From contig JAFYUJ010000032.1 of the NCBI GenBank assembly GCA_017558555.1, positions 1-64,000 of the forward strand: DNA of 64,000 bases, in the 5' to 3' direction. Each line of letters opens with the position of its first letter. Position 1 is the first letter of the stretch. The stretch comes from Akkermansia sp. Its GTDB lineage: Bacteria; Verrucomicrobiota; Verrucomicrobiia; Verrucomicrobiales; Akkermansiaceae. The notes beneath the pieces were generated by a model that was given only the letters and a program-made list of their open reading frames with translations, did no database searches and was not told the DNA's origin. Made by a program: the position numbers and the translations under genes. Positions 20,991 to 51,003 of the stretch are shown piece after piece.

Positions 20991-22391
20991 ATGAATGAAG
21001 CAGCACAGAACAGGCAATCTGCCGTGAGCTCCCGCACGAAGTGGGTAGATATGCACGAATTGCGCCGCTTGTTGGTGCTGATGTTGCCCTTGTACATTGC
21101 TAATCTGATGCACATAGGCATGGGGGTGATTGATACTATCATGGCCGGTGTGGCAGGGCCGGTGGAACTGGCCGCTGTGGCACTGGGTACTTCTGTGACA
21201 GCGCCCATCATGGTGGCAGTAGGGGCAGTGCTGACGATTGTGGGGCCGATGGTGTCGCGTTTGCGTGGTGCAGGGTGTGAGGGGAAAATAGGTTTGCTGC
21301 TCAATAATGCCAAAGTGTTAGCATACATACTCATGGTGGTGGAGCTGCTGGCATTGTATGCAGGGAGCCTTATTTTTCCTTACGTGACAGACGATGCCGT
21401 GTTGGCGAGCAAAGCCGCCTGGTATGTTTATTACATGATGTTGGGCGTGCCGGCCAGTGTCATGTTGCGAGCGGTGCAGGGGAATTTTGAGGGGTATGGG
21501 CAGACGCGTCCGGCCATGGTGTTGGCGTTGTTAGGGCTGGCGCTCAATGTGCCGCTGGATTTGGTATTTGTGCTGGGGTATTGTGGAATGCCCGCGTTGG
21601 GGGGTGCCGGGTGTGGTTTGGCCACAGCCTTGATTCACTGGATGATTGTGGGTGGATTGATTTTGCTCATGTTCGTTTCCCGGCAGCACCGCCTGCATGC
21701 TCTGCAGATGTTTACGCCACGCAAGGTCGATGCCAGCTTGTGCCGCCGTATTTTTGTATTGGGCTTGCCCATAGGCATTGCTTCTTTGTGCGAATTAGGC
21801 TTTTTTTGTGTGGTTATGCTGATCATAGCGCCTCTGGGTGAGCTGATGGTGAGTGCCCAGCAAGTGGCCATCAATGTATCGGGGGTGATTTTCATGCTGC
21901 CGCTCAGCCTGGGTATCGCGGCTTCCATCCGCGCGGCCTATCATGTGGGCGCCCGGCGAAAAGAGGCCTTCGATGCCATGGTGCGCACGGTGAGTTTACT
22001 GGCTTTTGTATTGGTATCCGGGGTGATGGTGCTCAGTATCATCTTCCGCCGCGATATAGTGATGCTGTATACAGATTCCCCCGTTGTGATAGAGCTGGCG
22101 CAGCTACTTATTCTCTTCTGCGCGTTTTACCAACTGCCGGACGCCACGCAGGCGCTCTTTTCCGGCTTGTTGCGCGGTTGCCATGATACGCGAATCATCA
22201 CCTGGATTAATCTTTGTTGCTATTGGTTGGTGGGCTTCCCTCTGGCATACACCCTGGTGCGCACCGATTGGATTGTGCCGGCCATGGGGCCTGCCGGTGC
22301 CTGGGTGAGCTTCATCGTCGCGCTGACGTTGGCTGCCATCTTGTTTCTTATTCGCTTCTCGCGCACGCGGCGCAAGTGTTTCCTGCAATAA
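20991..22391 (+). CDS. MATE-family efflux transporter (first of two)
   Basis: A 466-residue inner-membrane protein with about 12 hydrophobic helices in two homologous halves, typical of NorM/DinF-type MATE antiporters that export drugs or metabolites in exchange for Na+ or H+. Marks include the N-terminal LPLYIANLMHIGMGVIDTIMAG, RGAGCEGKIG after the second helix, QGNFEGYGQTRPAM, and SAQQVAINVSGVIF in the second half. The ATG at 20991 fits the family start. The next gene, 20 nt downstream, is a close paralogue. The substrate cannot be deduced. Confidence 0.92.
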   Translation: MNEAAQNRQSAVSSRTKWVDMHELRRLLVLMLPLYIANLMHIGMGVIDTIMAGVAGPVELAAVALGTSVTAPIMVAVGAVLTIVGPMVSRLRGAGCEGKIGLLLNNAKVLAYILMVVELLALYAGSLIFPYVTDDAVLASKAAWYVYYMMLGVPASVMLRAVQGNFEGYGQTRPAMVLALLGLALNVPLDLVFVLGYCGMPALGGAGCGLATALIHWMIVGGLILLMFVSRQHRLHALQMFTPRKVDASLCRRIFVLGLPIGIASLCELGFFCVVMLIIAPLGELMVSAQQVAINVSGVIFMLPLSLGIAASIRAAYHVGARRKEAFDAMVRTVSLLAFVLVSGVMVLSIIFRRDIVMLYTDSPVVIELAQLLILFCAFYQLPDATQALFSGLLRGCHDTRIITWINLCCYWLVGFPLAYTLVRTDWIVPAMGPAGAWVSFIVALTLAAILFLIRFSRTRRKCFLQ

Positions 22392-22411
22392 TTTCTTCCC
22401 ACGTATTACTC

Positions 22412-23788
22412 ATGAAAGAACATTCCTGGAAAAATTGGTTGAATCCCACAGAATTGTGGAAACTGATTGTATTGACGCTGCCGCTTTACATTGCCAACCT
22501 TACCCGCATTGGCATGGCTGTGACGGATACCATTGTGGCGGGCAAGGCGGGACTCACGGATTTGGCGGCCGTCTCTCTCGGGGTAGCCATCATTGCACCC
22601 ATCATGATGTCTGTGGGTGCTATTGTGACCATCGTGAGCCCCATGGTAGCCCGCCTGCGCGGGGCTTCTCAGGAGAGCAGGGTGGGGTCTTTGCTTTGCA
22701 ATGCCAAAAATCTTTCCCTGCGCCTCATGTTGGTGGAGTTGGTGCTCCTGCTGATAGCCAGTGGTATTTTTGGCCTGGTTTCAGATGATGAAGCAATGGT
22801 ATCCACCGCACGCATGTATCTTTACCTGGTGATTCTGAATGTGCCGGCCAGTATCATGCAGCGCGTGGTGTTGGGGTGCTTTGAGGGGTATCGCCAGACC
22901 TGGCCGGGTATGGTGGTGTTTTTGGTCGCATTGTTGATTAACATCCCTCTCAACTTCCTGTTTGTCTTGGGGTGGGGGCCCATCCCTGCCATGGGTGGTG
23001 CCGGTTGCGGCCTTGCCACAACTATTGTGCACTGGTTCATTTTCCTCTCCCTGCTGGGCATTTTGTATGCCATGCCGGAGCATCGCGCGCATGCGCATGC
23101 GTTGTTAGCTTGGCGCCCCACTTGCCCACGCACAGTGAAGAAGATTTTCCACCTGGGATTCCCGCTGGGGGTGGCTACCATGTGCGAGATGGGCTTTTTT
23201 GGTGCGGTCATGTTGTTCATTACGCCGCTGGGTAGCGCTGTCATGGGCGCCCAGCAAGTGGCGATGAATATCTCCCGCCTACTTTTCACCCTCCCTCTCA
23301 GTTTGGGGGTGGCGGTGTCCATTCGCTCTGCTTATTTCGTGGGTGCCGGGCGCAAGGATCCCTTTGATACACTTGTCAAAACATCCTCCCTGTTCACCTT
23401 TGCTGTGGTAGCCATCCTGGTGGCGCTGATGCTGCATTGGCGGCATGAAATCGTCGGTGGCATGACCAGCTCGGACGCCGTGGCTGATTTGGTGCTCGTG
23501 TTGCTGGTGTATTGTGCCATTTATCAGTTGGTGGATGCGGCCCAGGCTATCGCTTCCGGCTTGCTGCGTGGTTGCCACGATACGCGCGTCATCACCTGGG
23601 TCAACATCGTCAGCTATTGGTTTGTGGGGCTGCCCCTGGCCTATGTGTTCATTTGCACGGATTGGGTGCGGCCTGCCATGGGGGCCGCCGGGGCGTGGGT
23701 CAGTTTCATTGCCATCCTCCTGGTGGCTTCCGTCTGCCTCATTTGCCGCTTCTGCCATACACGCAAACTCATCTTTTCTGCTCATTAA
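22412..23788 (+). CDS. MATE-family efflux transporter (second of two)
   Basis: A 458-residue paralogue of the preceding gene with the same layout: LPLYIANLTRIGMAVTDTIVAG at the first helix, RGASQESRVG, LGCFEGYRQTWPGM, GAQQVAMNISRLLF, and a nearly matching C-terminal block (LLRGCHDTRVITWVN). The pair clearly arose by tandem duplication and has since diverged. The start at 22412 gives the expected N-terminus; longer in-frame extensions overlap the first gene. Tandem copies may work as separate pumps or as a heterodimer; the sequence does not say. Confidence 0.92.
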   Translation: MKEHSWKNWLNPTELWKLIVLTLPLYIANLTRIGMAVTDTIVAGKAGLTDLAAVSLGVAIIAPIMMSVGAIVTIVSPMVARLRGASQESRVGSLLCNAKNLSLRLMLVELVLLLIASGIFGLVSDDEAMVSTARMYLYLVILNVPASIMQRVVLGCFEGYRQTWPGMVVFLVALLINIPLNFLFVLGWGPIPAMGGAGCGLATTIVHWFIFLSLLGILYAMPEHRAHAHALLAWRPTCPRTVKKIFHLGFPLGVATMCEMGFFGAVMLFITPLGSAVMGAQQVAMNISRLLFTLPLSLGVAVSIRSAYFVGAGRKDPFDTLVKTSSLFTFAVVAILVALMLHWRHEIVGGMTSSDAVADLVLVLLVYCAIYQLVDAAQAIASGLLRGCHDTRVITWVNIVSYWFVGLPLAYVFICTDWVRPAMGAAGAWVSFIAILLVASVCLICRFCHTRKLIFSAH

Positions 23789-23832
23789 TGCATAAATTTC
23801 ACAAGAAAAGTGCTCCTAACGCGAAATTGTGC

Positions 23833-23861
23833 TTGACGTTGGGCGTATGACAGTGTAAATT
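23833..23861 (+). promoter_or_regulatory. Promoter of the reduced spc operon
   Basis: TTGACG (23833-23838) and TAAATT (23856-23861) are separated by 17 bp. The leader of about 55 nt contains a perfect hairpin CACTACA/TGTAGTG (23872-23887), which could be a site for ribosomal-protein feedback. That role is inference. Confidence 0.8.
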
Positions 23862-23920
23862 ATGCGCCCCGCACTACAGGTGTAGTGTGGCTCGAACTCG
23901 TAAACAAGTAACACAACACG

Positions 23921-24145
23921 ATGAAGACCCACGTGAAGAAAGGTGATAACGTCGAAGTTATCGCTGGCAAGAACAAGGGCAAGCGTGGTGTCGTTCTTTC
24001 CCTGAACGCCAAGAAGCAGACTGTGGTTGTTGAAGGTGCTCGCACCATCAAGAAGGCTACCAAGCCCTCCGAGTCTGACCCCGAAGGCGGTATCAAGGAA
24101 GTTGACGGCCCCATCCACATCTCCAATGTGAAGAAAGTGAGCTAA
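23921..24145 (+). CDS. rplX: 50S ribosomal protein L24
   Basis: A 74-residue L24 with the KOW motif [21 protein letters not shown] (residues 5-25), which starts assembly of the 50S subunit by binding 23S rRNA domain I. It is short; many L24 proteins have about 100 residues. It is the first gene after its own promoter, with a MATE transporter upstream where L14 (rplN) would be in most bacteria. Confidence 0.96.
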
Positions 24146-36599: not shown

Positions 36600-39317
36600 T
36601 CAGGCCATCACGGCAGCGCAGCGGGCGCACAGGCCTTCTTCATTCACTGCGGGCTCGTAGCGGCGGCAGCGGGGGCACATGCCATAGGCTGTCTTCTCTG
36701 CGGTAGCAGCCAGTTCCTCGCCCGTCTGCACGTGCAGGTCGGAGATGATGAAGAACTCCTTGGCAAACTCTGCATGGGAGAGCAGAGCTGTCACCTGGGC
36801 ATCCTCGTCAGCGGGGATGGTGAGCGTCACCACAGCCTCGTTGTTCTTATTGAAAGCCTTAGCCTTAATTTGCGCTTCGATGGCTACCTGAATCACGCTC
36901 TTGATTTGCTGCAGGCGAGCGAAGGGTGCGGTGAGACCGGCATCGAATTCGGCGCAGGGTTCGGGGAAGTCCTGTTCGTGCACAGAGCCGGCGTTGCCGG
37001 CGTGTTCCCAGGCCTCGTCGCAGGTGTACACCAGGATGGGAGCGAGCAGCTTCACCAAAGTATCGAATACGCGAGCGATGGCGAACTGCTTGCTGATGCG
37101 CTGGGGCGCATCGGCGGCATCGCAGTACAGGCTGTCCTTCGTCATGTCGATGTAGAGAGCTGACAAATCATTGGTGCAGAACTGGTTGATAGCCATGAAT
37201 ACCTTGCGGAACTCGTAGCCATCGTAGGCTGCGCGTACCTCGCGGATAAGCGTGTTGGTGCGCTCCAGAATCCAGGCATCCGTGGGGGCCAGTTCGGCCG
37301 GGCGGGCGCCGTTGTAACCCTTCAGGTTGGCCAGCAGAATGCGCAGGGTGTTGCGCAGGCGGCGGTAGGGGTCGGTAATCTGCTTGAAGAGGTCTTCACC
37401 GAAAGGAACCTCGTTTTGCCAGTCCACGCTGCTCACCCACAGACGCACGATATCGGCGCCGTACTTCTCGTAGAAATACTTGGCATTGGTGGGCTTCTGG
37501 TATGTGCCCTGGGCGCTCTTGGAGAGCTTGGAGCGGTCCTGGTTCACCACGAAAGCGTGGGTCAGTACCTTCTTGTAGGGGGCTGTACCGCGCCAGGCGC
37601 AGGAGAGCATCAGCGAGCTCTGGAACCAGCCGCGGTGCTGGTCTGTTGCTTCCAAGTACACATCGCAGGGGGCGGCGAGCTCGGGATGCGTTTCCAGCAC
37701 GGAAACGTGGGAGCAGCCGGAGTCAATCCACACGTCGAGCGTGTCCTTACCCTTGCGGAGACCGGTCGGCAGGCCGAGTTTTTCGCAGAGCTGTTCACTG
37801 CTGAGCTCGAACCAGATGTTGGTGCCGTGTTCGGCCACCAGGTCGGCCACCTTGTTCACGATTTCGGCGGTGAGGACGGGCTTGTCTTCGGCATCGAAGA
37901 AGACGGGCAGCGGTACACCCCAGGTGCGCTGGCGGGAGATACACCAGTCCGGGCGGGCCTCCACCGTGCTGTAAATGCGGTTGCGGCCCCAGGCGGGCAT
38001 CCATTCGGTCTTGTCGATTTGTTCCAGCGCCACGGGGCGGAGTTTCTCCATGCTGATGAAGAACTGCTTCACGGCGCGGAAGATGATGGGGGTCTTGGAG
38101 CGCCAGCAGTGCGGGTACTGGTGGGTGAACTCCTCGCGGCCCAGTAGGCGGTTGGCTTCCACCAGCAGGGTGATGATGTCTTCGTTGCTCTTGAAGACGT
38201 GCTTGCCCACCAGGTGGGGCAGGCCGCATTCTGCGGTGTAGTTGCCGTCATCGTCTACCGGAGAAAGAACGGGCAGCCCGTAGGCCATGCCGGCCACGTA
38301 GTCATCTGCACCATGGCCGGGGGCAATATGCACAGCGCCGGTACCGGCATCCGTGGTCACATAGGCTGCGTTGATGATGAGGGATTCGCGGTCAAGGAAG
38401 GGATGGCGAGCCGTGCGCTTCTCCAATTCGTTGCCCTTGAAGGTGGTAAGCTCTTCTTCCAGCGTCCAGCCGGTCTTGGCGGTGAAGGTTTCGATGAGTT
38501 CGCGCACAATGACGAAACGGCGGGTTTCACCATCCTTGGCATAGCGGCCCACCACGTAGGTGAACTCGGGGTTGAGGGCAATGGCCAGGTTGCTGGGCAG
38601 GGTCCAGGGTGTGGTGGTCCAGATGACCATTTCGCAATCGTCGATGCCGTTGATGGCGCCGTCCATCTTGAAACCCACGTAGATGGCTGTGGAGGTGTCT
38701 TCCATGTATTCCACCTCGGCTTCGGCCAGGGCGGTGTGGTGGGCGTAGCTCCACTGCACAGGCTTCATGGATTGGTACACAGCGCCGCTTTCCACCAACT
38801 TGGCGAATACGCGCAGAATCCAGGCCTCATACTCCGGCAGCATGGTGATGTAGGGATTAAACCAATCACCAAACACGCCGAGACGGCGGAACGAAACACG
38901 CTGCTGGTCAATGTAGCCCAGGGCAAATTCCGTGCAGCGGCGGCGGATTTCAGCCGGCGCCAGACCCTGGAATTCCTTCACCACTTTGGCTTCGATGGGC
39001 AGGCCGTGGCAGTCCCAACCGGGGATGAAGGGGGCATAGTAGCCGGCCATGGTCTTGCTCTTGACGATGAGGTCTTTGAGCACCTTGTTCAGGGCTGTGC
39101 CCATGTGCACATCGCCATTGGCAAAGGGAGGACCATCATGCAATATAAAACGGGGAGCCCCCTGCGCCTTGCGGCGCTCAGTAATTCGATCGTAAAGCTT
39201 TTCATTCTCCCATTTCTCTAAACGCACCGGCTCCTTGGTAGTGAGATCACCACGCATGGGGAACGTGGTGTCCGGCAGGAAAATGGTATCTTTATAGCTC
39301 TTTGCGGGTGTGCTCAT
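36600..39317 (-). CDS. ileS: Isoleucyl-tRNA synthetase
   Basis: A 905-residue class I synthetase that charges tRNA-Ile. The first signature is GDVHMGTALNK (68-78), in which the HIGH motif reads HMGT. The second, KLSKS, is near 597. The CP1 editing domain is present (TTTPWTLPSNLAIALNPE near 240). A C-terminal zinc-type module has two Cys pairs (CPRCRRYEP and CARC). The ATG at 39317 is set by the conserved MSTPAKSYKDTIFLP start and by the -10 box 9 nt upstream. lspA and a DUF1573-like gene follow in the same operon. Confidence 0.97.
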   Translation of the reverse strand: MSTPAKSYKDTIFLPDTTFPMRGDLTTKEPVRLEKWENEKLYDRITERRKAQGAPRFILHDGPPFANGDVHMGTALNKVLKDLIVKSKTMAGYYAPFIPGWDCHGLPIEAKVVKEFQGLAPAEIRRRCTEFALGYIDQQRVSFRRLGVFGDWFNPYITMLPEYEAWILRVFAKLVESGAVYQSMKPVQWSYAHHTALAEAEVEYMEDTSTAIYVGFKMDGAINGIDDCEMVIWTTTPWTLPSNLAIALNPEFTYVVGRYAKDGETRRFVIVRELIETFTAKTGWTLEEELTTFKGNELEKRTARHPFLDRESLIINAAYVTTDAGTGAVHIAPGHGADDYVAGMAYGLPVLSPVDDDGNYTAECGLPHLVGKHVFKSNEDIITLLVEANRLLGREEFTHQYPHCWRSKTPIIFRAVKQFFISMEKLRPVALEQIDKTEWMPAWGRNRIYSTVEARPDWCISRQRTWGVPLPVFFDAEDKPVLTAEIVNKVADLVAEHGTNIWFELSSEQLCEKLGLPTGLRKGKDTLDVWIDSGCSHVSVLETHPELAAPCDVYLEATDQHRGWFQSSLMLSCAWRGTAPYKKVLTHAFVVNQDRSKLSKSAQGTYQKPTNAKYFYEKYGADIVRLWVSSVDWQNEVPFGEDLFKQITDPYRRLRNTLRILLANLKGYNGARPAELAPTDAWILERTNTLIREVRAAYDGYEFRKVFMAINQFCTNDLSALYIDMTKDSLYCDAADAPQRISKQFAIARVFDTLVKLLAPILVYTCDEAWEHAGNAGSVHEQDFPEPCAEFDAGLTAPFARLQQIKSVIQVAIEAQIKAKAFNKNNEAVVTLTIPADEDAQVTALLSHAEFAKEFFIISDLHVQTGEELAATAEKTAYGMCPRCRRYEPAVNEEGLCARCAAVMA

Positions 39318-39326
39318 ACGCGCGCC

Positions 39327-39481: not shown

Positions 39482-40720
39482 ATGTCAATACGAATACGTG
39501 AATGGGGCATGCTGAGAAATGGGGCGGAGCAGCCGCATGTTTCTGTGCATGGTCTCACAGATTGGGAAATCGGGGCTCGCCAAGCGGGGCAGGGGCTCTC
39601 TGCCATGGTGCTGGGCGGTGTTCAGGTGGTGCAGGAGCGCGAGAAAGTCGCCGCGGCCGGTGAGCTTGCGGCTTTTTCCGAGAAGCTTCAAGCCATGGAG
39701 CAGGAAATCAGCAGTGAACTGGAAGAGACCGAACCCGCTCAATGGAGCCGGGATTGGGAATCGGCGTTCGCAGCGCGAGTGTCCGATGCGCTGGAGGATG
39801 TGTCACCGGCTTTGCGGGAGACTGCGCAGAAAATGGCGGCAGAGTACACCCGCGAGGCCGGCATTCGCGCAGTGCGAGACCGCGAGCTGGCCGGTATCGA
39901 CCGGGCACGCAGGCGGTGGCAGCACCGGGTGGATGCTGCCGTACAGTCCGGAGATGCGCAGGCTGCTCGCCAATGGCTGGAGCAAGGGCGTGGTGTTTTT
40001 GTGCCGGAAGGGCGGATGGAGGCGGAAGAGAAATCGTTGGAGAGTAAAGTGTTGTTGCAGCAGTGGCGGCGGAATTTGCAGCAGAATCCCGTCCGCACCC
40101 TGGGAGATTACCTGCACCGCCCCGCGGGTCTTATGCTGCCGCAGTATGAAGAGGGCGAGCAGCTGAAACACGAAGTGGAGCAGACGCAGCGCCAGGCCCG
40201 GGAAATCTTTGTGCGGGAGCAAATGGAACGCGCCATGCGTGGTGAGCCGGCAGATGCCCAGACCCTGAAACAGGCCGACCGTGCCGGTATCATCACCCGA
40301 GCCCAGCGCAAGTCTGCTCTGGCAGCACCGCAGGAGCCTGCACACCGGGATTTAAATTGCTGGTTGCGCCGGGTGCATGAGTGCGACACCGCGCCGGATG
40401 AAGTGCTGGCGCTGCAAGTGGATATTTGCACCGCGGCTCTTCCCGCAGCCCGTCGGGTGGAGTTGGTGCAGCGTCTGGAGCAGGCAGCATCCGTGCGCCG
40501 GGAAGACCGCCTTACCATGAGCCGCCGATTGTGGAACCTGTATCACGATGGCGCGTTTGGATGCCCGGGCGATGCACTTGCAGAACAGCGACTGCACCGT
40601 TTGCAGATGTGTGGCTTGCCCCTGCTGGCAGAATCCGGCAATGATGCCGTGGCGGAATGGTTGTCCGGGCTGGACCGCCGGGACGAGCAATGGGTTTGTT
40701 TTTCACCTCAATATGCATAA
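39482..40720 (+). CDS. Alpha-helical phage-like protein (candidate ejection protein)
   Basis: About 412 residues, strongly helical and charged, without signal or membrane segments. Features recall podovirus internal virion or ejection proteins: SGDAQAARQWLEQGRGVF (a GD-x-x-x-AR unit), then RRNLQQNPVRTLGDYLHRPAG, and long helices rich in Glu, Arg and Gln. That likeness is judged by composition and by its place before a giant protein and TerL. The start is uncertain: in-frame ATGs lie at 39455, 39458, 39482 and 39509, with no Shine-Dalgarno. The stop is 5 nt before the next gene. Confidence 0.65.
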   Translation: MSIRIREWGMLRNGAEQPHVSVHGLTDWEIGARQAGQGLSAMVLGGVQVVQEREKVAAAGELAAFSEKLQAMEQEISSELEETEPAQWSRDWESAFAARVSDALEDVSPALRETAQKMAAEYTREAGIRAVRDRELAGIDRARRRWQHRVDAAVQSGDAQAARQWLEQGRGVFVPEGRMEAEEKSLESKVLLQQWRRNLQQNPVRTLGDYLHRPAGLMLPQYEEGEQLKHEVEQTQRQAREIFVREQMERAMRGEPADAQTLKQADRAGIITRAQRKSALAAPQEPAHRDLNCWLRRVHECDTAPDEVLALQVDICTAALPAARRVELVQRLEQAASVRREDRLTMSRRLWNLYHDGAFGCPGDALAEQRLHRLQMCGLPLLAESGNDAVAEWLSGLDRRDEQWVCFSPQYA

Positions 40721-40725
40721 TCATC

Positions 40726-43700
40726 ATGAATACACTAATAGAAAAGAAAACGATTGCGGATACACCCGCAACAGACACGCAGGAGCCCGAAGTTGTGCTG
40801 CATGATGCAGCCCCGGAGCCGCAGGAAGAACGCGCCACACCGGAGGATGAAACCCCGGAGGCGCATCAGACAAAGGTGTTGGACCTGGGGGCCGACCCCG
40901 AGGATTACATAGCACCGGAAGAGGAGCCGGACCAAGATGAAGATGTGTTCGGAGCGGTCACCGGCTATGGCTTTGCAGATGAGGAAATGCAGCAATACTT
41001 TCGCGATGCGTCGTGGAAGCCCGCCTGGCAGCAGCCCGCCGCGCCCACTCCGCTTTTGCCCCCCGGGCAACAGGCGAAAAAGGACACTTACTGGAAGAGC
41101 CTGCTCACGAGCGATGTTCACACTATCCCCAATGCCATCCGCGATAAAATTCTGGATAAGGCTAATGATCTGACGGAAGAAGAACAGGATTACCAGCTTT
41201 GCGCAGCCATCAATCGTTCGTGGGCGGTGGATCACCTGGATGTTTCTCGCGAGACGGTGCAAAGTGCCTGGCCGCAGTATCGCGGACGCCTCGCACGACG
41301 ATTGAACGTAGCGAACACAGATGAAGATGTCTTCTTGGCCTTGTCTGCCCGCGAAAGTGAGAAACCGCTGCGACAAGCCGGGAGCGAGGCCTACATCATT
41401 GCTTACACCGCAGGGCTGGAAGGTAAGCGCGAATATGATATTACAGCCCAGTTGAAAACACTCAGCGCCGACCACGCCGATAATGCCCGCGGCCTGGCCA
41501 CGCGCGCCCATGAGGAAGGGATGGCCAAACGCCGCCGCCTTATGCCATTGGCTCGGTTGATCAAAAGTGGGGTGGAATCATTGGCCTCGTTGGAAGAGGA
41601 TGCCGTGCCCACGATGCGAGTGCTCCGGCATGCTCCGGAGCTGACCCGAGCTGTCCGGGAATTGGGGCAAATGACCCGCGAGGAACGTAATGTAGCTCTG
41701 CATGTGGCGCGCTCCATCATGCCCATGCCCGCCCCCGGCGGCGACACTGGGGAGGGAGTGATGCGTGTTGTGCAGCGTGCCATGCGGCGCGGGGCATCCT
41801 CCGGCGGCATCCATCTGGCCCAGGGTGTGGCGCAGTTGGGGGCTTCTGTGCTGCGCCGGGCAGGCAAGGATAATGCAGAAACGCTCACGGCCAAATGGGC
41901 AGAAAAGGTGGATAAATACAGTATTGTTTTTGATGAATTGCGGCGCCTGACGCAAGATGAACTGCTGCCGCTGCAGCCCCCGAAAAGCAGCGGGTTTGCC
42001 GGACAGTTCATGGTAGATATGGGCAGCGCTTTGCCGGAGATTGTCCTGTCCTTTATCAAAAGCCCGGTTGCAGGTGCGATTACCTATGCTCGCGACTTGG
42101 GGCAATCAACCATGGACATCCGGCATCGCGCCCCGGAAGCCAAACCCGATGTGGCGCTGACAGCCGGAGCCCTGGGCTTGCTTGTTCAGAAGCAAATGGA
42201 GGGGCTCTTCTCTCGTGTAGGGGGCGAAAAACTGGCCAAGTCCATTTCCCGCCTTGTTAAACAACGTGGTGGTGGTGTGAAAAAGTTTGCTCTGCATGGT
42301 GCGGGGGTGAGCCGAGCCATGGCGTTTGAGCTGATGCGCGAATTAATCGGCGGCAAGATGGGGCAGATGGCAGGCTTGCTGACCCAGGAAGCCGTGATGA
42401 AATCTCAGCAAACAGCTTCCAATATTGATTGGCGCCAATTTGGTGAATCTGTGGTGGATGTCAATGTGAACTTGAGAGAAGCCGCCCTCGAGCTACCCTT
42501 TATCCTGCTGGGAGCCGGTCATGTGGCCCTGCGCGATTTCAGAGCCCCGCGGGATGTGCTCAAGAAGGATGCTGCGGCCCTTATTCCCTGGGGCATCTCC
42601 GAGGCTGAGCGCAAGAAGATTGCTGCGGAGACCGATATTGATAAGCAGGGTGAACTGGTGCGTCTGGCGTTGGTCAACAGCCCCAGATGGGGCGGTCTGG
42701 AGTTCTCGGAGCGCGCCGCACGGGCGCTGCGCTTGCTCAATTTTAACTACTTTACCGAGTTCAATGACCCTGGGTTTGTGCAGGATTTCCTGAAGTTGCC
42801 ACCGCTGGAGGCTTATACCAACAAAGCAGATACTGCTAAAGTGGAAGAGTTTCCGCCGGATAGTGTGTTGGAACGCGGCATTTTCAGCGTTCAGCATCGC
42901 GATGATACCGAGTATCAAACCCAGCTCATGGAGCTTTGGGGAAATGAGTGGCGAAAAGCGCATTACATGGACGATGCATCCCATTTTCCTGCTCCGGAAT
43001 GGGAGTTGTCCCGCGTGGAAGAGCCCTCTCTGAAACGCCTGGCACAGTATGTGAATGAGGTACACAGGGCTAAGTATACCTTCATCCCGAGGCGTCTGCG
43101 CCGAGAGGGCCTGTATGCTCCTTTTGCTGATGTGGAGCGCAAGGTGTTGTTGCGTGACCGCGTGGCCGATGTCAATAGCATTTCGCATTTGCTTGCCTTG
43201 CATTCTCTCTCCATGGATTCGCGGGCTGAGCAGCGCGTCTCCGTCAGCGATATGCGCAAGCACGTGCAGGAAACCAGGGAAAAATACCTCTCGAACGTGG
43301 CGGCTTCCGTGCTGCGTATCATGCAGGGCGAAGATAAGAAAACCGTTTACCATGAGATGGAAAAGGGATTGCTTACGGATATTCGCGACAACTTGTACAG
43401 CTTGCCGGATGCTCCCAAATGGCTCCGCAAAATCAGCAAGTGGGATTTTGAGGGGCTTCCCTCATTCGATATGGATGGCTGGGCCACCTGGTCTCCGTGG
43501 ATTAACAATCCTGATATGATTGAAGTACACCGTATTTGCGCGGGCACTCGCGCCAACATCGGGATGCTGACAGAGCTGCTGCCGCTGACAACGGATTATT
43601 TTGCCGGTGTGGCGCGCGGGATGACACCCTTGCAGGCTTCCCACCATATCTTGTTGCGCGAGTTTGGCTTCAACCCGCAGCACCTGCCCGAGCAGGTGCA

Positions 43701-46692
43701 AGCAGCCCTGGCAGAAAATCAATCTGCTGCCGCTTTTGCCGAGTTTTGTGCGGAGAATGAGAAGATATTCACCCTGACACACCGCATGTTCGGCGAGAAT
43801 TTATTGCAGGATACCTCGCCTGATGGCCAACCGCTCTGGGCGATTAAACGTGCAGATGGTACCCAATCTCCCTGGCACAGCTCACCTCAACAGGCCATCA
43901 ATGATTATGTACTCAATGCCCGTGCGTATGTTCGCCTCTTTGACCCATGGGGCTTTCTGCCCCCGGAGTCCGTCATGGAAGGGAAAAACTTCCGCGGTGA
44001 GGCGGATGATTGGTTCGGCAGCCGCAATCCCTTTAATGGGCATGATCAGCTGTTCAGCCACGCCTCGCGCGACATGCTGCAGCTCATGGATGAGCGCGCG
44101 GCCTTTTTGCAGCCGGGCCATCTTGTGAACCGGGAGCATAACCATTTCTGCCCGATTGATTCGGATTTGGATGATGGTGTCACTCCGCTTTTCACAAAAG
44201 TGGAGCCGGATTATGGCCGCTACTTTGTGAATCAATTCACCGTGACCTCTCCCGTGGCGTATTTGCAGAGCCGCTCGCGCGTGTTCTGGGAGCGCATGCT
44301 GGGGTCTCGCCAGGTCACCCCGGAGCAGCTTGAAACCTTCCTGATGAAGGTGGAAAAGGAATTCCCGCAAATGAAGGCGGCTATGGAACACCATTTCAAG
44401 GACCCCAACGTGGAGTACCGCAGAAGATGGAGCCGCACGAGGAATGCCGCTCTGGCCAACAAAATGTCTGTTTATTCCACCTGTTACCTGATATCCAACC
44501 TGCACTTGCTGGATTTGCCGGATTCGGTTCGCTCGTGGATGATGCTGACTCCCCTGGCTCCCACGATGGATGATACCAAACCTGTGGGCGGGGAGCGAGG
44601 TAAGCAGCGCCGCTCCGTTCCCCGCGGCAAGTTGGACCGCGGCTTGATGACGTGGATTAACCGCACCGCATCAGAGAAAATGCGCCGCCTGGCACCCATG
44701 TTGGAAAGCATGCGCGGCAAATCTCTTTTCCATGAGGAAGATAAGTACATGAAAAAGCTTTTTGATATGTCCATCGGGAAAGACCCGGTGATGCAGCTGG
44801 AACAAGGCTGGATTCAGCTGCTTTGTGGGGAGGAGGTTCTTCGCTCCATGAACCAACGCTGGCTCAATTTTATGTATTCTCCTATGGCCGGCTGGCATGG
44901 CCTGAGCAAGTATGAAAAGCAACACCTGGCAGATTTCATGGCACCCCTGATTCGCCAGGGGGAGGATGTCGCCATGGCTGAAAAGACCTTTGATGACCGC
45001 CTGGCCAACATGAATAACGTGGAGCGACTGGAACTGGAGCTGGAAGCTCTGGACCTGACTTTGGCGGAGAATCCGCACATGCGCCAATACGGCTATGTGG
45101 ACCCCTCTCAGCCTTTTGCCAGCATGTTGTTAGTGGATAAGAAAATGCCGGGGTTGAAGCAGGCTGAGGAACCCAATTATCTGGGGTTGCCGCTGTACGA
45201 GGGCTCCCATGTGGTGGGGTGCTCGGTGGTGCCCTATGGCAAATTTGCAATGGCGGAGGACACGCCGCCGGATGTGGGGCGTGCGTTGCATATCCTGAGC
45301 CGTCTGCGCATGTATCCCATTGTGCGCCCCGTGTTCAAAGGCGGGCAAATCAGCTGGAACGGCGTGGTGTACGGTGGCAGCAAGGGGAAGCCCCCACACC
45401 GCCTGGATCAATGGGAAGTGGTGGAAAATCCGCTGGAATCCCTTCTGCAAATGCGCGATAAGGTGGAGCAGTTGGAGGAGGCTGAACTGGAGGATACGGT
45501 GGCTAATTTTGATTTGTTGTATAATTCCATCCTGCCGAACACGCACGATGAGGTGTATGGCAACATCACCGTCTACAGGCACCCCGAGAAGGCCATGCAC
45601 ATTTGCCGTCTGATGCCGGGCGAGCCCTTTGCTTTGCACCCGCGCGTGACCAATCCTTATGTGGTGCAGAGTATCAAGGGTGCATACATTATTCAACGCA
45701 AAATGGCTGATACCCCCGCCCTGATGGAGGAGGCCATCCAACCGCTGGAAAACTTCCGCCCCTGGGGTGATCAGAATCGCACATCTGTGCGCATGGAAGA
45801 TGGCCGCACCATGGCTATCCGCCGCAATTTGAATCTGCTGGTGAATCACCCCATGGATTTCAATCGGGACGATACGCCCTTCAACGCCAGTCCGCGAGAG
45901 ATGCTCATGCGCCTGGCGGTGGATACAGGCTTCCTGGATACACTCAATAATGTGCAGCCTCATCAGATGGATTATGGCAGCTCTCTCACATACAGCCTGA
46001 TCAATGCTTTGTATGAATATGGTTGCCACCCGGACCTCAAGGAAACGCACCTGGCGCTGAAAGAAATCACCAGGCGCTTGCGCGATAATGAGGAGGATTA
46101 CAAGCTGGTGTTCCGCGTGCTGCGTGAGTCCGCCCGCCGTAACTCGCGGCCCGAGCCCATCATGTCGTTGTTCAACTGGCAGAGTGAGGAATCTCTGCGA
46201 GCGTCGGCCGAGCGCATCCGCCACCAAGCTGAGATGGGCGAGCAAACATCCACCCCGGAGAGTGAACCTGACGCAGAGCCCACGCCGGAGCCGGTGCTGC
46301 CTGTGGTGGAGCTTCCCAAGGCGGCAGAAATCAATCGTCTGGAGGAAACCGCCGGTGTGCGTTTTGCTCCTGTGGAATTTGCCCCGCCCAATGTGCTGGC
46401 CGGGCAGCAAGCCACAGCCGCATACGATGAAGCCGCAGAGCCCGCACCTCGTGCGCCGCTCATGAAACCCGTGGAGGTGGAGGATGATAGTATATGGGGC
46501 GATTTATTCAAGCTGAAGCACCCGGAAAAGAAGCAAAAGCAGGAAAGCTCCGCGCCCGCAGAGGAGGGGCTTCTGCTGCCCTTGCCTCCTGCATCGGGCA
46601 TCATCAAAGATGCCAAACCTGTGCCTCGCACCCGCAGAAAAGCTGCGGAGCATGACCAGCTCTTCTTTGATTTCGGAAATGATACGCCATGA
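40726..46692 (+). CDS. Giant phage-like protein (1988 residues)
   Basis: A 1988-residue protein by far larger than its neighbours. An acidic, Pro/Glu-rich start (1-90) is followed by helical regions, a moderately hydrophobic Gly/Ala-rich part (about 430-540, for example MVDMGSALPEIVLSFIKSPVAGAI), a long soluble part without recognised catalytic motif, and a Pro/Glu-rich C-terminus ending in EHDQLFFDFGNDTP. Size and its place between a helical protein and TerL suggest a virion ejection protein (T7 gp16-like) or a large polyvalent phage protein. Neither is proven. The frame is intact over 6 kb, so the gene is under selection or recently acquired. Its TGA overlaps the TerL ATG (ATGA). Confidence 0.8.
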   Translation: MNTLIEKKTIADTPATDTQEPEVVLHDAAPEPQEERATPEDETPEAHQTKVLDLGADPEDYIAPEEEPDQDEDVFGAVTGYGFADEEMQQYFRDASWKPAWQQPAAPTPLLPPGQQAKKDTYWKSLLTSDVHTIPNAIRDKILDKANDLTEEEQDYQLCAAINRSWAVDHLDVSRETVQSAWPQYRGRLARRLNVANTDEDVFLALSARESEKPLRQAGSEAYIIAYTAGLEGKREYDITAQLKTLSADHADNARGLATRAHEEGMAKRRRLMPLARLIKSGVESLASLEEDAVPTMRVLRHAPELTRAVRELGQMTREERNVALHVARSIMPMPAPGGDTGEGVMRVVQRAMRRGASSGGIHLAQGVAQLGASVLRRAGKDNAETLTAKWAEKVDKYSIVFDELRRLTQDELLPLQPPKSSGFAGQFMVDMGSALPEIVLSFIKSPVAGAITYARDLGQSTMDIRHRAPEAKPDVALTAGALGLLVQKQMEGLFSRVGGEKLAKSISRLVKQRGGGVKKFALHGAGVSRAMAFELMRELIGGKMGQMAGLLTQEAVMKSQQTASNIDWRQFGESVVDVNVNLREAALELPFILLGAGHVALRDFRAPRDVLKKDAAALIPWGISEAERKKIAAETDIDKQGELVRLALVNSPRWGGLEFSERAARALRLLNFNYFTEFNDPGFVQDFLKLPPLEAYTNKADTAKVEEFPPDSVLERGIFSVQHRDDTEYQTQLMELWGNEWRKAHYMDDASHFPAPEWELSRVEEPSLKRLAQYVNEVHRAKYTFIPRRLRREGLYAPFADVERKVLLRDRVADVNSISHLLALHSLSMDSRAEQRVSVSDMRKHVQETREKYLSNVAASVLRIMQGEDKKTVYHEMEKGLLTDIRDNLYSLPDAPKWLRKISKWDFEGLPSFDMDGWATWSPWINNPDMIEVHRICAGTRANIGMLTELLPLTTDYFAGVARGMTPLQASHHILLREFGFNPQHLPEQVQAALAENQSAAAFAEFCAENEKIFTLTHRMFGENLLQDTSPDGQPLWAIKRADGTQSPWHSSPQQAINDYVLNARAYVRLFDPWGFLPPESVMEGKNFRGEADDWFGSRNPFNGHDQLFSHASRDMLQLMDERAAFLQPGHLVNREHNHFCPIDSDLDDGVTPLFTKVEPDYGRYFVNQFTVTSPVAYLQSRSRVFWERMLGSRQVTPEQLETFLMKVEKEFPQMKAAMEHHFKDPNVEYRRRWSRTRNAALANKMSVYSTCYLISNLHLLDLPDSVRSWMMLTPLAPTMDDTKPVGGERGKQRRSVPRGKLDRGLMTWINRTASEKMRRLAPMLESMRGKSLFHEEDKYMKKLFDMSIGKDPVMQLEQGWIQLLCGEEVLRSMNQRWLNFMYSPMAGWHGLSKYEKQHLADFMAPLIRQGEDVAMAEKTFDDRLANMNNVERLELELEALDLTLAENPHMRQYGYVDPSQPFASMLLVDKKMPGLKQAEEPNYLGLPLYEGSHVVGCSVVPYGKFAMAEDTPPDVGRALHILSRLRMYPIVRPVFKGGQISWNGVVYGGSKGKPPHRLDQWEVVENPLESLLQMRDKVEQLEEAELEDTVANFDLLYNSILPNTHDEVYGNITVYRHPEKAMHICRLMPGEPFALHPRVTNPYVVQSIKGAYIIQRKMADTPALMEEAIQPLENFRPWGDQNRTSVRMEDGRTMAIRRNLNLLVNHPMDFNRDDTPFNASPREMLMRLAVDTGFLDTLNNVQPHQMDYGSSLTYSLINALYEYGCHPDLKETHLALKEITRRLRDNEEDYKLVFRVLRESARRNSRPEPIMSLFNWQSEESLRASAERIRHQAEMGEQTSTPESEPDAEPTPEPVLPVVELPKAAEINRLEETAGVRFAPVEFAPPNVLAGQQATAAYDEAAEPAPRAPLMKPVEVEDDSIWGDLFKLKHPEKKQKQESSAPAEEGLLLPLPPASGIIKDAKPVPRTRRKAAEHDQLFFDFGNDTP

Positions 46693-48308
46693 ATGAGACC
46701 GAACACAGACTGAATGTGCCCCCGGCCTTGCAGGGGCGATTGGATAACCCGCTCTGGCGGCTCAATCACTTGTATTGGATCGAAAACAAGAGTGGGCGTA
46801 TGCAGCGCTTTTGCCTGAATGCGGCCCAGAACCGCCTGCACCGGCACTTGTGGAATCGCAATGCCGTACTCAAGGCCCGCCAGTTGGGGATTTCCACCTA
46901 CGTGGCGATGCTGATGCTGGACCGCTGCCTCTTCACCCCGAATTATCACGCCGGTATCATCGATAAAACGCTGCCGGATGCCGAGCAGAAGCTGGAGAAA
47001 ATCCGCTTCGCCTGGGAACACCTCGATTACGAGCCTCCGGGTGCCAGCGGCGAGGAGAGAGCCCTGGCCTATCTGGGGGCCTTGCTCAAGCAGCGTACCG
47101 GCGTGCAGAAGAAAGCCGCCCTGCGCCCCGTGGCAGATGCCCGCACCCGCCTGGCTTTTGCGAACGGTAGTGATATCCGCCTGGGGACCACCCTGCGTGG
47201 CGGTACATTGCAGCTTTTGCATGTATCGGAGCTGGCGCATGTTTCCGTGCATTCTCCCTGGCGTGCCAGGGAGATTCGCACCGGCGCCATCAACACCGTA
47301 CCGGCAGAGGGCACCATCATCCTGGAAAGCACCCACGAGGGGGGCCGCTATGGTGTGAACTATGAGATGATGACCCAAGCCATGGAAAATACCGCCAAAG
47401 GTGAGCTCACTCCGCTGGATTTTCGTTTCTTTTTCTTCAGCTGGTTCGATCACCCGGACTATGCTCTCACCGGCCGCCCCGGCTGGGATGATGCCGCTGC
47501 CGCCTATTTTGAAAAGCTGGAGCAGGTGAGCGGGGTGCAGCTCAGTTCCCGCCAAAAGCAATGGTACGCCCGTATGCAGCGCACCATGGGGGCCGCCATG
47601 TGCCAGGAGTACCCCTCCACCCCCGAGGAGGCGTTCTCCACCGGCAACGATGGAGCCATCTACGGCGCACAGATGGCCCTGCTGCGAGAGCAGGGGCGCA
47701 TTGGCACCGCATTCGAGTACAACCCGCATGAGCCCCTTTACGCTGCCTGGGATTTGGGACTGAGCGATCACACCGCTATCTGGCTCATCCAGCATTGGGG
47801 TAAAGATGTCTACTGGCTCAACCACTATGCGGCTAATCAGTATCCGCTGGAGCACTATGCCGGCAAAATCCGCGAGTGGGAGCACCGCTATGGCCCCATT
47901 GCGGCTCATTTCCTGCCGCATGATGCCGCCCATCGCGACCCGCATGGCCATTCTTATGTGGAGAGCCTGGCGCAGTGCGGTATCGTGGCTGTGCGGGTGG
48001 TCCCCCGCACACCCGATGTGTGGCGCGGTATCAATACCCTGCGCGGTATTTTGGTGCATAGCTGGTTTCACCCGGATACCATGGCCCAGCGCCTCACCCC
48101 CACGGGCGAGCGCGAGCCCTCCGGCCTCACTTGCCTGGAGATGTATCGCACCGCGCCGCCGGGCGCCTCCGGCACCTGCCGCGAGACTCCACTGCACGAT
48201 GCTTCCTCCCACAGCGCAGATGCCGCCCGCATGTTCGCCGAGGCTCTTTCGCACGGCCTTGTCGCTCCGGTTAAGGTGCAACGTGCTCCTCGTTTGGCTC
48301 GAATGTAA
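46689..48308 (+). CDS. Phage terminase large subunit (TerL)
   Basis: A 539-residue DNA-packaging motor with all key parts visible. The Walker A variant KARQLGIST is at 62-70, Walker B ends LLHVSE with E181, and the coupling motif STHEG is at 214-218. The RNase H-like nuclease has acidic residues D355 (AWDLG), D412 (HDAAHRD), and D504/D511 (HDASSHSADAAR). TerL cuts concatemeric phage DNA and pumps it into proheads with TerS and portal, neither of which is present here. Length is normal for the family and no frameshift is seen. It closes the three-gene phage-like operon. Confidence 0.93.
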   Translation: MNETEHRLNVPPALQGRLDNPLWRLNHLYWIENKSGRMQRFCLNAAQNRLHRHLWNRNAVLKARQLGISTYVAMLMLDRCLFTPNYHAGIIDKTLPDAEQKLEKIRFAWEHLDYEPPGASGEERALAYLGALLKQRTGVQKKAALRPVADARTRLAFANGSDIRLGTTLRGGTLQLLHVSELAHVSVHSPWRAREIRTGAINTVPAEGTIILESTHEGGRYGVNYEMMTQAMENTAKGELTPLDFRFFFFSWFDHPDYALTGRPGWDDAAAAYFEKLEQVSGVQLSSRQKQWYARMQRTMGAAMCQEYPSTPEEAFSTGNDGAIYGAQMALLREQGRIGTAFEYNPHEPLYAAWDLGLSDHTAIWLIQHWGKDVYWLNHYAANQYPLEHYAGKIREWEHRYGPIAAHFLPHDAAHRDPHGHSYVESLAQCGIVAVRVVPRTPDVWRGINTLRGILVHSWFHPDTMAQRLTPTGEREPSGLTCLEMYRTAPPGASGTCRETPLHDASSHSADAARMFAEALSHGLVAPVKVQRAPRLARM

Positions 48309-48371: not shown

Positions 48372-49298
48372 ATGAAATACGGGATATTTTTTTATATAGC
48401 TGCGGTGATGCTGACAGGAGGATATATGCAGTTGTATGCTGCCACGGATGCTGCGACTGCTGCCCCAGCAAAAGTGGGGCTTGCCGAAGTGCGGGCTGCG
48501 AAAAAAACATTGGATGATGTCATGGCGAAGGCGCAAACGTTGAGAGATTCCGTCAAAGCTGAATTGGCTAAGATTGATGCAATCAAAGAAGCGGGGAGAA
48601 GAGGAAGGTTGAGTTCTGCGCAAGAAGCTGAGGTAGCTCAGAGTGAGCACCGCATAATAAAGTGGGGGGAAGAATTAGAGTCCGTGCAGAAAGAACATAT
48701 TGCGGCATATCAGGAGTATGCTGCTAGTGTGGAGGTATACATTGCCACACCTGCAAAAAAGGCCAAGAGTGCGCGACTGAAAGCGGAGTACGCCACGGAG
48801 CTTTATTCCTATAAGCACTTTAATATATCGATAAAGTTTAATGATACATACGCGAAACAAGGAATTCGCTCGGCCAAGGATCAAGAAGCTCTTAACGAAG
48901 CATATCGTTCAGATCCCGGAATAAAAGAGTTGGTTAGCTTGAAAAAATTAGTGGCACAGAGAGTGCGCGAATATGAAAGCCTGGCCAAAAAAGAAAGCGT
49001 TGAGGTTCAGCCATTCAAGCATTGGCCTATGAATGGCGACCTGGTGAGCGCGCATCAGCGATTGAGACTCACAACGAAGACATATAAAAATGTACCACCT
49101 GCCTTTTTCGTCGATGCAGATTATCACAACCCGGAAGAGGTAAAGCGTTTCCTGATAAGTCTGGGCATGACGTTCGGAGATGGAGGTAAGGCTCGTTATG
49201 ATGCCTCTAAAAAAGTGATAGAACTGCAGCAGACAAAGGAAGGGCATGCCGTTATGCGGGAAATCATGAAATTATACCGTGCCAGAACCAAGAGGTGA
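48372..49298 (+). CDS. Secreted coiled-coil protein of unknown function
   Basis: A 308-residue exported protein. The N-terminal 23 residues are a signal peptide (GIFFYIAAVMLTGGYMQLYAA). A Lys/Ala/Glu-rich coiled coil covers about 35-140, followed by a compact C-terminal domain (about 210-305) with VPPAFFVDADYHNPEEVKRFL. I do not recognise the family. The gene is visibly richer in A and T than its neighbours on both sides, which suggests a separate origin, perhaps linked to the phage-like insertion just upstream. It has its own promoter. Confidence 0.72.
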   Translation: MKYGIFFYIAAVMLTGGYMQLYAATDAATAAPAKVGLAEVRAAKKTLDDVMAKAQTLRDSVKAELAKIDAIKEAGRRGRLSSAQEAEVAQSEHRIIKWGEELESVQKEHIAAYQEYAASVEVYIATPAKKAKSARLKAEYATELYSYKHFNISIKFNDTYAKQGIRSAKDQEALNEAYRSDPGIKELVSLKKLVAQRVREYESLAKKESVEVQPFKHWPMNGDLVSAHQRLRLTTKTYKNVPPAFFVDADYHNPEEVKRFLISLGMTFGDGGKARYDASKKVIELQQTKEGHAVMREIMKLYRARTKR

Positions 49299-49365: not shown

Positions 49366-51003
49366 ATGACCGCGAATAAGAGTTTCGTAGCAGAGATGGC
49401 AGACCAGCTGGGTCTGGATGAGCGTTTGGTTGTGCCCTATGGCTTGGACAAGGCCAAGGTGAGCATTCAGGCGCTGCGTGAGAAACCGCGCAAGGGTCGC
49501 CTGATTTTGGTGAGTGCGCTGACACCCACCCCCGCAGGTGAAGGCAAGACCACGGTGTCTATTGGTTTGGCACAGGGGCTGAAGGCCATTGGCAAGAGTG
49601 CCTGCTTGGCATTGCGCGAGCCCTCGATGGGGCCTGTGTTTGGCCGCAAGGGCGGTGCCACGGGTGGCGGTGCATCCAGCATTACGCCCGGCGACAGCAT
49701 CAACCTGTGCTTCAATGGCGATTTTCCGGCCATCACCGCCGCCAACAATCTGCTGGCCGCTGTGATTGATAATGCTCTTTTCTATCGCACCACCAAACTG
49801 AGCCAGAACAAGGTGACATGGAAGCGTGTGATGGACATGAACGATCGCTCCCTGCGTAGCATCGTGGTGGGCCTGAACCGCAACGGCGTGGCCCGCGAAG
49901 ATGGCTTCAACATCACCCCTGCTTCTGAAATCATGGCCTGCCTCTGCCTGGCTGAGGACATGGATGACCTGCGCCGCCGTATCGACAACATCGTGGTGGG
50001 CTTCACCGATGAGGATGAGGCTGTGTATGCCAAGGAATTCGGCGTGACGGATGCGCTGCTGGCCATCCTGCGCGAGGCTATCAATCCGAACCTGGTGCGT
50101 TCTCTGGAAGGTGTGCCGGCCTTTGTGCATGGTGGTCCCTTCGCCAACATTGCCCATGGTTGCAACTCCGTGATTGCTACCCGCATGGCTTTGGCCTGTG
50201 CTGATTATGCGGTGACGGAAGCTGGTTTCGCCTTTGATTTGGGCGCTGAGAAGTTCCTGGATATCAAGTGCCGCCAGAGCGGTCTTTCCCCGGATGCGAT
50301 TGTGATTGTGGCGACCATTCGCGCGCTCAAGATGCATGGTGGTGTTGCCAAGACGGAGCTGGAGACACCCAATGTGGAGGCCGTGCGCCGTGGTTTGGAC
50401 AATCTGGCTGCACACATTGAGAGTGCCCGCCTGTACAAGCGCCCCATCACGGTGGCCATCAACCTCTTCGAGGCTTTTGATACGGAGGAAGAAATTGCCG
50501 CTGTGAAGGAACTGTGCGCCGAGATGGGCGTGGGCTGCGCCGTAGCCAATGTCTTTGGTAAGGGTGGCCCCGGTTCCATGGAGTTGGCTCAGACGGTGGT
50601 GGACAGCATCACAGATGATCAGCCCGAGTTCTCCTGCCTGTACAGCTTGGATATCCCCGTGGTGGAGCGTATGGAAGCTATTGCCAAGGGCGTGTATGGT
50701 GCCGATGGTGTGGTGTTGACCAAGGCTGCTCAGAAGAAGCTGGCGCTCATGGAACGCAATGGCCTGACCAATCTGCCCATCTGCATGGCCAAGACCCAGA
50801 ACTCTCTATCCGATAATGCCGCTCTCACGGGTCGCCCCAAGGGCTTCACGGTGACGGTGCGCGACTTCGAGATTGCCAATGGTGCCGGTTTCCTGGTGGC
50901 GCTGTGCGGTGATATACTGCGCATGCCGGCTCTGCCCAAGGTGCCGTCTGCCTGTGATATCCGCGTGGATGCGGATGGCCGCATCACCGGCATGAAGGGT
51001 TAA
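49366..51003 (+). CDS. fhs: Formate--tetrahydrofolate ligase
   Basis: A 545-residue enzyme that joins formate and THF with ATP to give 10-formyl-THF. The ATP-loop region TPTPAGEGKTT lies at about 54-64, followed by LREPSMGPVFGRKGGATGGG near 85-104 and the C-terminal DIRVDADGRITGM. Length is normal (about 550). Together with metF and the pyruvate enzymes it points to anaerobic C1 metabolism for purines and methionine. The same enzyme serves acetogenesis in other bacteria, but there is no sign of that pathway here. Confidence 0.97.
   Translation: MTANKSFVAEMADQLGLDERLVVPYGLDKAKVSIQALREKPRKGRLILVSALTPTPAGEGKTTVSIGLAQGLKAIGKSACLALREPSMGPVFGRKGGATGGGASSITPGDSINLCFNGDFPAITAANNLLAAVIDNALFYRTTKLSQNKVTWKRVMDMNDRSLRSIVVGLNRNGVAREDGFNITPASEIMACLCLAEDMDDLRRRIDNIVVGFTDEDEAVYAKEFGVTDALLAILREAINPNLVRSLEGVPAFVHGGPFANIAHGCNSVIATRMALACADYAVTEAGFAFDLGAEKFLDIKCRQSGLSPDAIVIVATIRALKMHGGVAKTELETPNVEAVRRGLDNLAAHIESARLYKRPITVAINLFEAFDTEEEIAAVKELCAEMGVGCAVANVFGKGGPGSMELAQTVVDSITDDQPEFSCLYSLDIPVVERMEAIAKGVYGADGVVLTKAAQKKLALMERNGLTNLPICMAKTQNSLSDNAALTGRPKGFTVTVRDFEIANGAGFLVALCGDILRMPALPKVPSACDIRVDADGRITGMKG

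Follow-up and report, generated by a model that had tools for sequence, protein, structure and literature searches.

Three phage-derived genes beside ileS are probably one locus of a dispersed, podovirus-like gene transfer agent of Akkermansia

The gene transfer agents (GTAs) that have been studied in detail are few and come mostly from Alphaproteobacteria (PMC12946183), and dispersed examples are hard to find because they resemble prophage remnants (PMC11841831). The agent of Rhodobacter capsulatus (RcGTA; Rhodogtaviriformidae) has phage-derived head, portal and large terminase (TerL) genes, is inherited vertically and occupies several loci (PMC9662315, PMC11841831). That of Brachyspira hyodysenteriae (BhGTA, formerly VSH-1; Brachygtaviriformidae) is conserved across its genus and co-diversifies with its host, the single-copy TerL gene lies outside the structural cluster, and gene synteny is absent between species (PMC9662315). 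The set of Akkermansia genes described here resembles both. With BhGTA it shares a genus-wide distribution, co-diversification, a single-copy TerL gene apart from the structural genes and the lack of synteny between species; with RcGTA it shares phage-derived head, portal and TerL genes, vertical inheritance and the use of several loci. It differs from BhGTA, which has a 16.3-kb structural cluster whose proteins are mostly without recognised phage homologues, in that the genes for its capsid, portal and nozzle are separated from one another and are clearly homologous to podovirus families, and in belonging to another host phylum. RcGTA has one main head-tail cluster, and its tail is siphovirus-like; the Akkermansia set has no such cluster, and its tail genes are of podovirus type.

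The locus lies in a 64,000-nucleotide stretch of an Akkermansia sp. genome (GCA_017558555.1, contig JAFYUJ010000032.1), referred to here as the window. In the window genome (G000) the three genes of interest, which we call HEL, GIANT and TerL, are on contig C19, with the following features (window coordinates):

36600-39320, minus strand: ileS, divergent and upstream of HEL
39482-40720, plus strand: HEL, 412 aa counted from the conserved start, all-helical; predicted gp15-like ejection or internal virion protein
40726-46692, plus strand: GIANT, 1988 aa with a helical N-terminal part; predicted large ejection protein in a gp16-like position
46689-48308, plus strand: TerL, 539 aa, large terminase whose ATPase and nuclease residues are intact
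48372-49298, plus strand: open reading frame of 308 aa between TerL and fhs, outside the module as counted
49366-51003, plus strand: fhs, downstream of TerL

An earlier, sequence-only reading had described three tightly coupled, intact genes between ileS and fhs, and we confirmed the coordinates, the 5-nt gap between HEL and GIANT and the ATGA overlap between GIANT and TerL. The 308-aa frame has no relative in any other locus compared, and was excluded from the module because G064, a close relative, lacks it and has fhs following TerL. An empty-site check found fhs adjoining ileS in none of the other genomes compared beyond G064. Elsewhere in the window, positions 21001-24000 show a strong AT skew (about -0.27) relative to most of the stretch.

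A profile match (phrog_2, 3e-20) and tblastn matches to annotated phage terminases, at up to 37% identity, identify TerL as a terminase, as the motifs visible in the translation had already indicated. Residues K62, R64, E181, D355, D360, D412 and D511 are invariant in 24 aligned proteins; they include the key residues of the stretch KARQLGIST and E181, which we take from knowledge of the family to be those of the ATPase, and four aspartates (D355, D360, D412 and D511) that are presumably those of the nuclease. The TerL of the A. muciniphila G052 prophage (see below) is only 46% identical to that of the window; the TerL proteins that accompany GIANT across Akkermansia genomes show 58-95% identity. 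A scan of 84,980 species genomes returned, at 58% identity or more, only records titled Akkermansia, Akkermansiaceae or Verrucomicrobiales and two uncultured gut metagenome-assembled genomes, the next best being a prophage copy at 40%, followed by other bacteria at no more than 37%. One contig from a viral collection (IMG/VR UViG_3300022601_000527; L032) encodes a TerL 81% identical to that of the window, and is possibly a piece of Akkermansia chromosome that was counted as virus.

Sequence searches found GIANT in 59 of 76 Akkermansia genomes and in none of 67 genomes of other genera, and the GIANT profile was likewise absent from other genera when 387 genomes of the phylum were searched. HEL, GIANT and TerL recur as a tight, closely spaced trio in most Akkermansia genomes, HEL being part of the cluster at 35 of 38 module loci, and this recurrence argues that the arrangement is not due to chance. 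The genes flanking the trio vary between clades and its contexts differ among species. The GIANT frame is open in nearly all relatives. Neither HEL nor GIANT has a significant match in Pfam, PHROG or PADLOC; GIANT matched nothing in 50,697 phage records and, as a single sequence, nothing in viral contigs, and its alignment is without any stretch conserved enough to scan with.

The sequence-only reading had found no capsid or portal gene. That statement stands for the flanks of the trio and fails for the genome, having been drawn from one locus. Genus-wide searches for the portal (phrog_332), the major capsid protein (MCP; phrog_3437) and the tail nozzle (phrog_376) located the following in the window genome:

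C65, 45384-46292: MCP, a single-gene locus (PF19821, 4e-83)
C107, 6946-8502: portal (PF12236, 5e-123)
C107, about 5.8-10.0 kb: cluster of portal and scaffold with a divergent tail tubular A
C61, 5957-8419 (locus about 5.95-8.45 kb): tail nozzle, or tubular B (phrog_376)

Adjoining the portal are a phrog_3742-family protein in scaffold position and the divergent tail tubular A (phrog_394), joined in several relatives by a Bbp19-like small protein and a small HTH protein; MCP and nozzle each stand alone, and the genes around them are not conserved along with them. In almost all genomes that have the trio, a single conserved portal gene and a single conserved MCP gene lie elsewhere, and the same is true of the nozzle. 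This dispersal does not arise from assembly error, because four unlinked loci are also seen in finished, single-contig genomes (G004, G015, G052, G070, G073 and G075). TerL, MCP, nozzle and portal lie at 463, 1787, 2208 and 2504 kb in G073 (2664 kb, one contig), at 1832, 353, 2861 and 3065 kb in G004 (3176 kb, one contig) and at 2327, 1528, 1446 and 2151 kb in G015 (3497 kb, one contig). The nearest pair in these three genomes is MCP and nozzle of G015, about 80 kb apart, and distances between loci in the finished genomes run from 80 kb to more than 1 Mb, beyond an ordinary podovirus headful. Two genomes are partly clustered: the nozzle gene directly follows TerL in G022 (L052:2842-5349, minus strand), and MCP is 6.7 kb away from TerL in G038 (L212). 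Both arrangements fit derivation of the dispersed genes from one block.

These other loci bear directly on the proposal that the trio is a phage satellite, packaged in the capsid of a helper phage. A small module of phage genes from whose locus the capsid gene is missing is suggestive of such an element, but the genome holds its own MCP, portal, scaffold and nozzle, and these co-occur with the module, which is itself single-copy and vertically inherited. Moreover, G073 has one copy each of the TerL, MCP, portal and nozzle families and no prophage of that family was seen in it; with no second copy there is no helper of that family whose capsid, the hallmark of a satellite, could be borrowed. 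The satellite reading is therefore extremely improbable.

The true prophages of the genus are blocks that carry divergent paralogues of the set genes. In A. muciniphila G052 (contig C1, about 2.44-2.47 Mb; L063, L209) a temperate, podovirus-like prophage has all its genes in one block. The content of the G052 and G074 prophages, annotated mainly in G052, comprises TerS (phrog_51), TerL, endolysin, portal, scaffold, MCP and nozzle, and then a 572-aa protein and a giant protein of 3389 aa in G052:

L209:5995-16161, minus strand: prophage giant of G052, 3389 aa, with ART-PolyVal (ADP-ribosyltransferase), PBECR5 nuclease and LPD3 domains
L210:4875-15152: prophage giant of G074, 3426 aa

The G052 prophage and the dispersed set have in common homologues of TerL, portal, scaffold, MCP, nozzle, HEL and GIANT; the prophage differs in being a single block with TerS, replication genes and endolysin. 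HEL is homologous (hhalign 95%, E 2e-8) to the 572-aa protein, which is encoded immediately before the GIANT-like gene, and the N-terminal 540 aa or so of GIANT are homologous to the 3389- and 3426-aa proteins (hmmsearch 1e-28 and 9e-30; hhalign 99.4%, 5e-21). The two prophage homologues are adjacent and in the same order as in the window. The ART-PolyVal, PBECR5 and LPD3 domains of the G052 giant, predicted effector domains that are probably delivered with the phage DNA, were not found in the window GIANT by Pfam search, a difference that may represent trimming during domestication. The prophage proteins c11 and c12, considered as relatives of HEL and GIANT, gave no profile-profile match and were set aside. 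Among other prophages, those of L060, L062 and L067 have TerL and nozzle on the strand opposite MCP, scaffold and portal, unlike L056 and L063, a pattern of gene-block rearrangement among Akkermansia prophages.

HEL is predicted to be all-helical (AlphaFold pLDDT 84). Among its fold matches, at ranks 1-3, 11 and 17, are T7 core proteins, a pre-ejectosome from a cyanophage, the periplasmic tunnel of T7 and the PhiM1 ejectosome, at Z scores of 6.2-7.5 that are common for helical proteins; matches in BFVD include phage proteins, internal virion proteins among them, with E down to 6e-7. A fold search with the N-terminal part of GIANT gave no significant match, the model being weak (pLDDT 69.5). 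As in T7-type gp15/gp16, a helical protein is followed by a giant one, and chains of the T7 core, cyanophage and PhiM1 ejectosomes are among the top fold matches of HEL; in contrast to this likeness, no sequence similarity to gp15/gp16 was found, and for a helical protein a Z of 7.5 does not decide the matter. The phage-derived origin that had been proposed for the trio is supported by the family of its TerL and by the prophage homologues of HEL and GIANT, and those same homologues, together more weakly with the fold matches of HEL, uphold the comparison of the first two proteins with podovirus internal virion proteins.

The unlinked loci are present together or absent together. GIANT, TerL, MCP, portal and nozzle all occur in 50 of the 76 genomes and none of them in 16; the other 10, which are without one or two, are all multi-contig drafts. 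These counts refer to GTA-type copies only, which were split from prophage-type copies by score and in part by our own judgement, G013 being ambiguous in this respect (nozzle and MCP of intermediate score on contig C21); in protein searches with the portal, GTA-type copies are 58-100% identical and all others at most 40%. Fisher tests of gene-pair co-occurrence give p values between 6e-11 and 5e-16 when relatedness is ignored. On a tree of ileS the absences need four changes, namely one clade of 13 plus G059, G013 and G028 singly, and genomes on either side of the deepest split in the genus carry the set; taking the direction of change from the midpoint root, we infer about four joint losses. 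The genes for portal, TerL, nozzle and MCP share a stretch of contig C21 in G013, at about 17-46 kb, and show intermediate similarity to the GTA set; this stretch may belong to a prophage closely related to the set or to a version of the set that has not dispersed.

Every locus sits in its own chromosomal context, as might be expected had single phage genes been domesticated independently and without relation to one another. This is highly improbable given the near-perfect co-occurrence, the joint losses on several branches, the position of the G022 nozzle and the agreement between gene trees. The GTA copies form one clade apart from the prophage copies in the trees of TerL (support 98) and nozzle (support 100); in those of MCP and portal they group together, and the prophage of G052/G074 is their nearest neighbour, in a branching order that is not settled. 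These gene trees share their main split with the ileS tree, and over 19 genomes the Mantel correlation of distances is 0.88-0.95 with ileS and 0.91-0.98 among the set genes.

Selection has also acted on these genes. In close pairs, for some of which dS is saturated, dN/dS is 0.02-0.16 for TerL, 0.02-0.11 for MCP and 0.03-0.18 for portal, and 0.08-0.25 for scaffold, 0.09-0.37 for HEL, 0.13-0.48 for GIANT and 0.08-0.47 for nozzle, with reference values of 0.01-0.12 for ileS and 0.03-0.12 for prophage genes. MCP, TerL and portal are the most constrained, with values near those of ileS, and HEL, GIANT and nozzle evolve fast. It is very unlikely that the pieces are the decaying leftovers of a broken-up prophage, as the differing contexts between species and the failure to recognise an integrase, TerS or lysis gene near any of them might suggest, since their frames are uninterrupted, dN/dS is below 0.2 for TerL, MCP and portal, the unlinked loci are present or missing jointly and they have been inherited across the deepest split of the genus. 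The sequence-only reading had likewise taken the module to be kept, and its uninterrupted frames and dN/dS well below 1 agree. Low dN/dS indicates selection for function but, taken alone, cannot tell a GTA from a phage; the pattern of unlinked, vertically inherited, single-copy genes can.

Together these observations make it probable that a domesticated podovirus-like GTA of Akkermansia occupies at least four unlinked loci, of which the trio is one, and the "gene-transfer-like" device raised among the options of the sequence-only reading is the one we favour. Viewed against the definition of a GTA in PMC9662315, the particle proteins derive from tailed phages (Caudoviricetes), as seen in the TerL, portal, scaffold, MCP, tail A and nozzle families and in the prophage homologues of HEL and GIANT; the genes are fully endogenised in the host genome at multiple loci, four of them unlinked; and inheritance is mostly vertical, with co-diversification with the host. 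The structural genes of a prophage would stand in one block, and here they occupy separate loci in host contexts.

Conservation alone is insufficient to prove that DNA transfer is the function. The scattered genes might instead make a podovirus-like particle with another use, such as killing competitors or blocking phages through mixed capsids or terminase. Conservation of virion genes fits any use of a particle, and related prophages exist in the same genus, but the ATPase and nuclease residues of TerL are kept genus-wide, the strongest constraint falls on MCP, TerL and portal, which points to DNA packaging, and the set is maintained in G073, where no prophage of that family was seen. Nor are known defence proteins matched: there was no PADLOC match at E values up to 1, which also speaks against the anti-phage device suggested earlier. 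We consider a particle used for something other than gene transfer unlikely.

Under the GTA reading, we infer that particles form, package host DNA at random and deliver it, with induction and lysis as part of the cycle. On induction the scattered genes would be expressed together, MCP and scaffold would assemble a head on the portal, and TerL would fill this head with host chromosomal DNA. Tail A and nozzle would close the short tail. HEL and GIANT would lie inside the head and, leaving it first, would form a channel through the envelope of the recipient, the particles having been released by lysis. Since distances between the genes range from tens of kilobases to megabases, no single particle would be expected to hold them all, and packaging of the set by its own particles is likely limited in this way. 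No TerS, lysis gene, tail fibre or dedicated regulator was identified for the dispersed set, and inspection by eye of aligned upstream regions showed no common promoter or operator motif. The endolysin family phrog_435 was considered as the missing lysis locus and dropped because its spread is uninformative: it occurs in 75 of 76 genomes, those lacking the set among them, and 8 of 14 control genomes have it too. On balance we lean towards a fuller proposal, in which Akkermansia makes a functional podovirus-type GTA, as far as our searches show the first in Verrucomicrobiota, that has no main cluster (capsid and nozzle being single-gene loci), whose pieces shift their chromosomal place between species yet are inherited vertically, and whose scattering itself blocks transfer of its own full gene set.

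We found no paper on an Akkermansia GTA in the open literature, and novelty is provisional as most subscription papers and preprints fell outside the search; in a 2026 survey of capsid-packaged bacterial DNA from the gut, the emphasis is on Oscillospiraceae, Ruminococcaceae and Bacteroides, and Akkermansia goes unmentioned. Three features appear to be new: the phylum of the host, tail and ejection genes of podovirus type, and a layout with no main cluster. The genus offers an evolutionary series that runs from the prophage block through the partly clustered G022 and G038 to full dispersal and several joint losses, and a search for single virion genes that co-occur without being linked could uncover further GTAs. 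Our findings suggest that Akkermansia make their own virus-like particles to pass DNA among themselves, which, if true, would be an unrecognised route of DNA exchange for a prominent gut commensal that is used as a probiotic.
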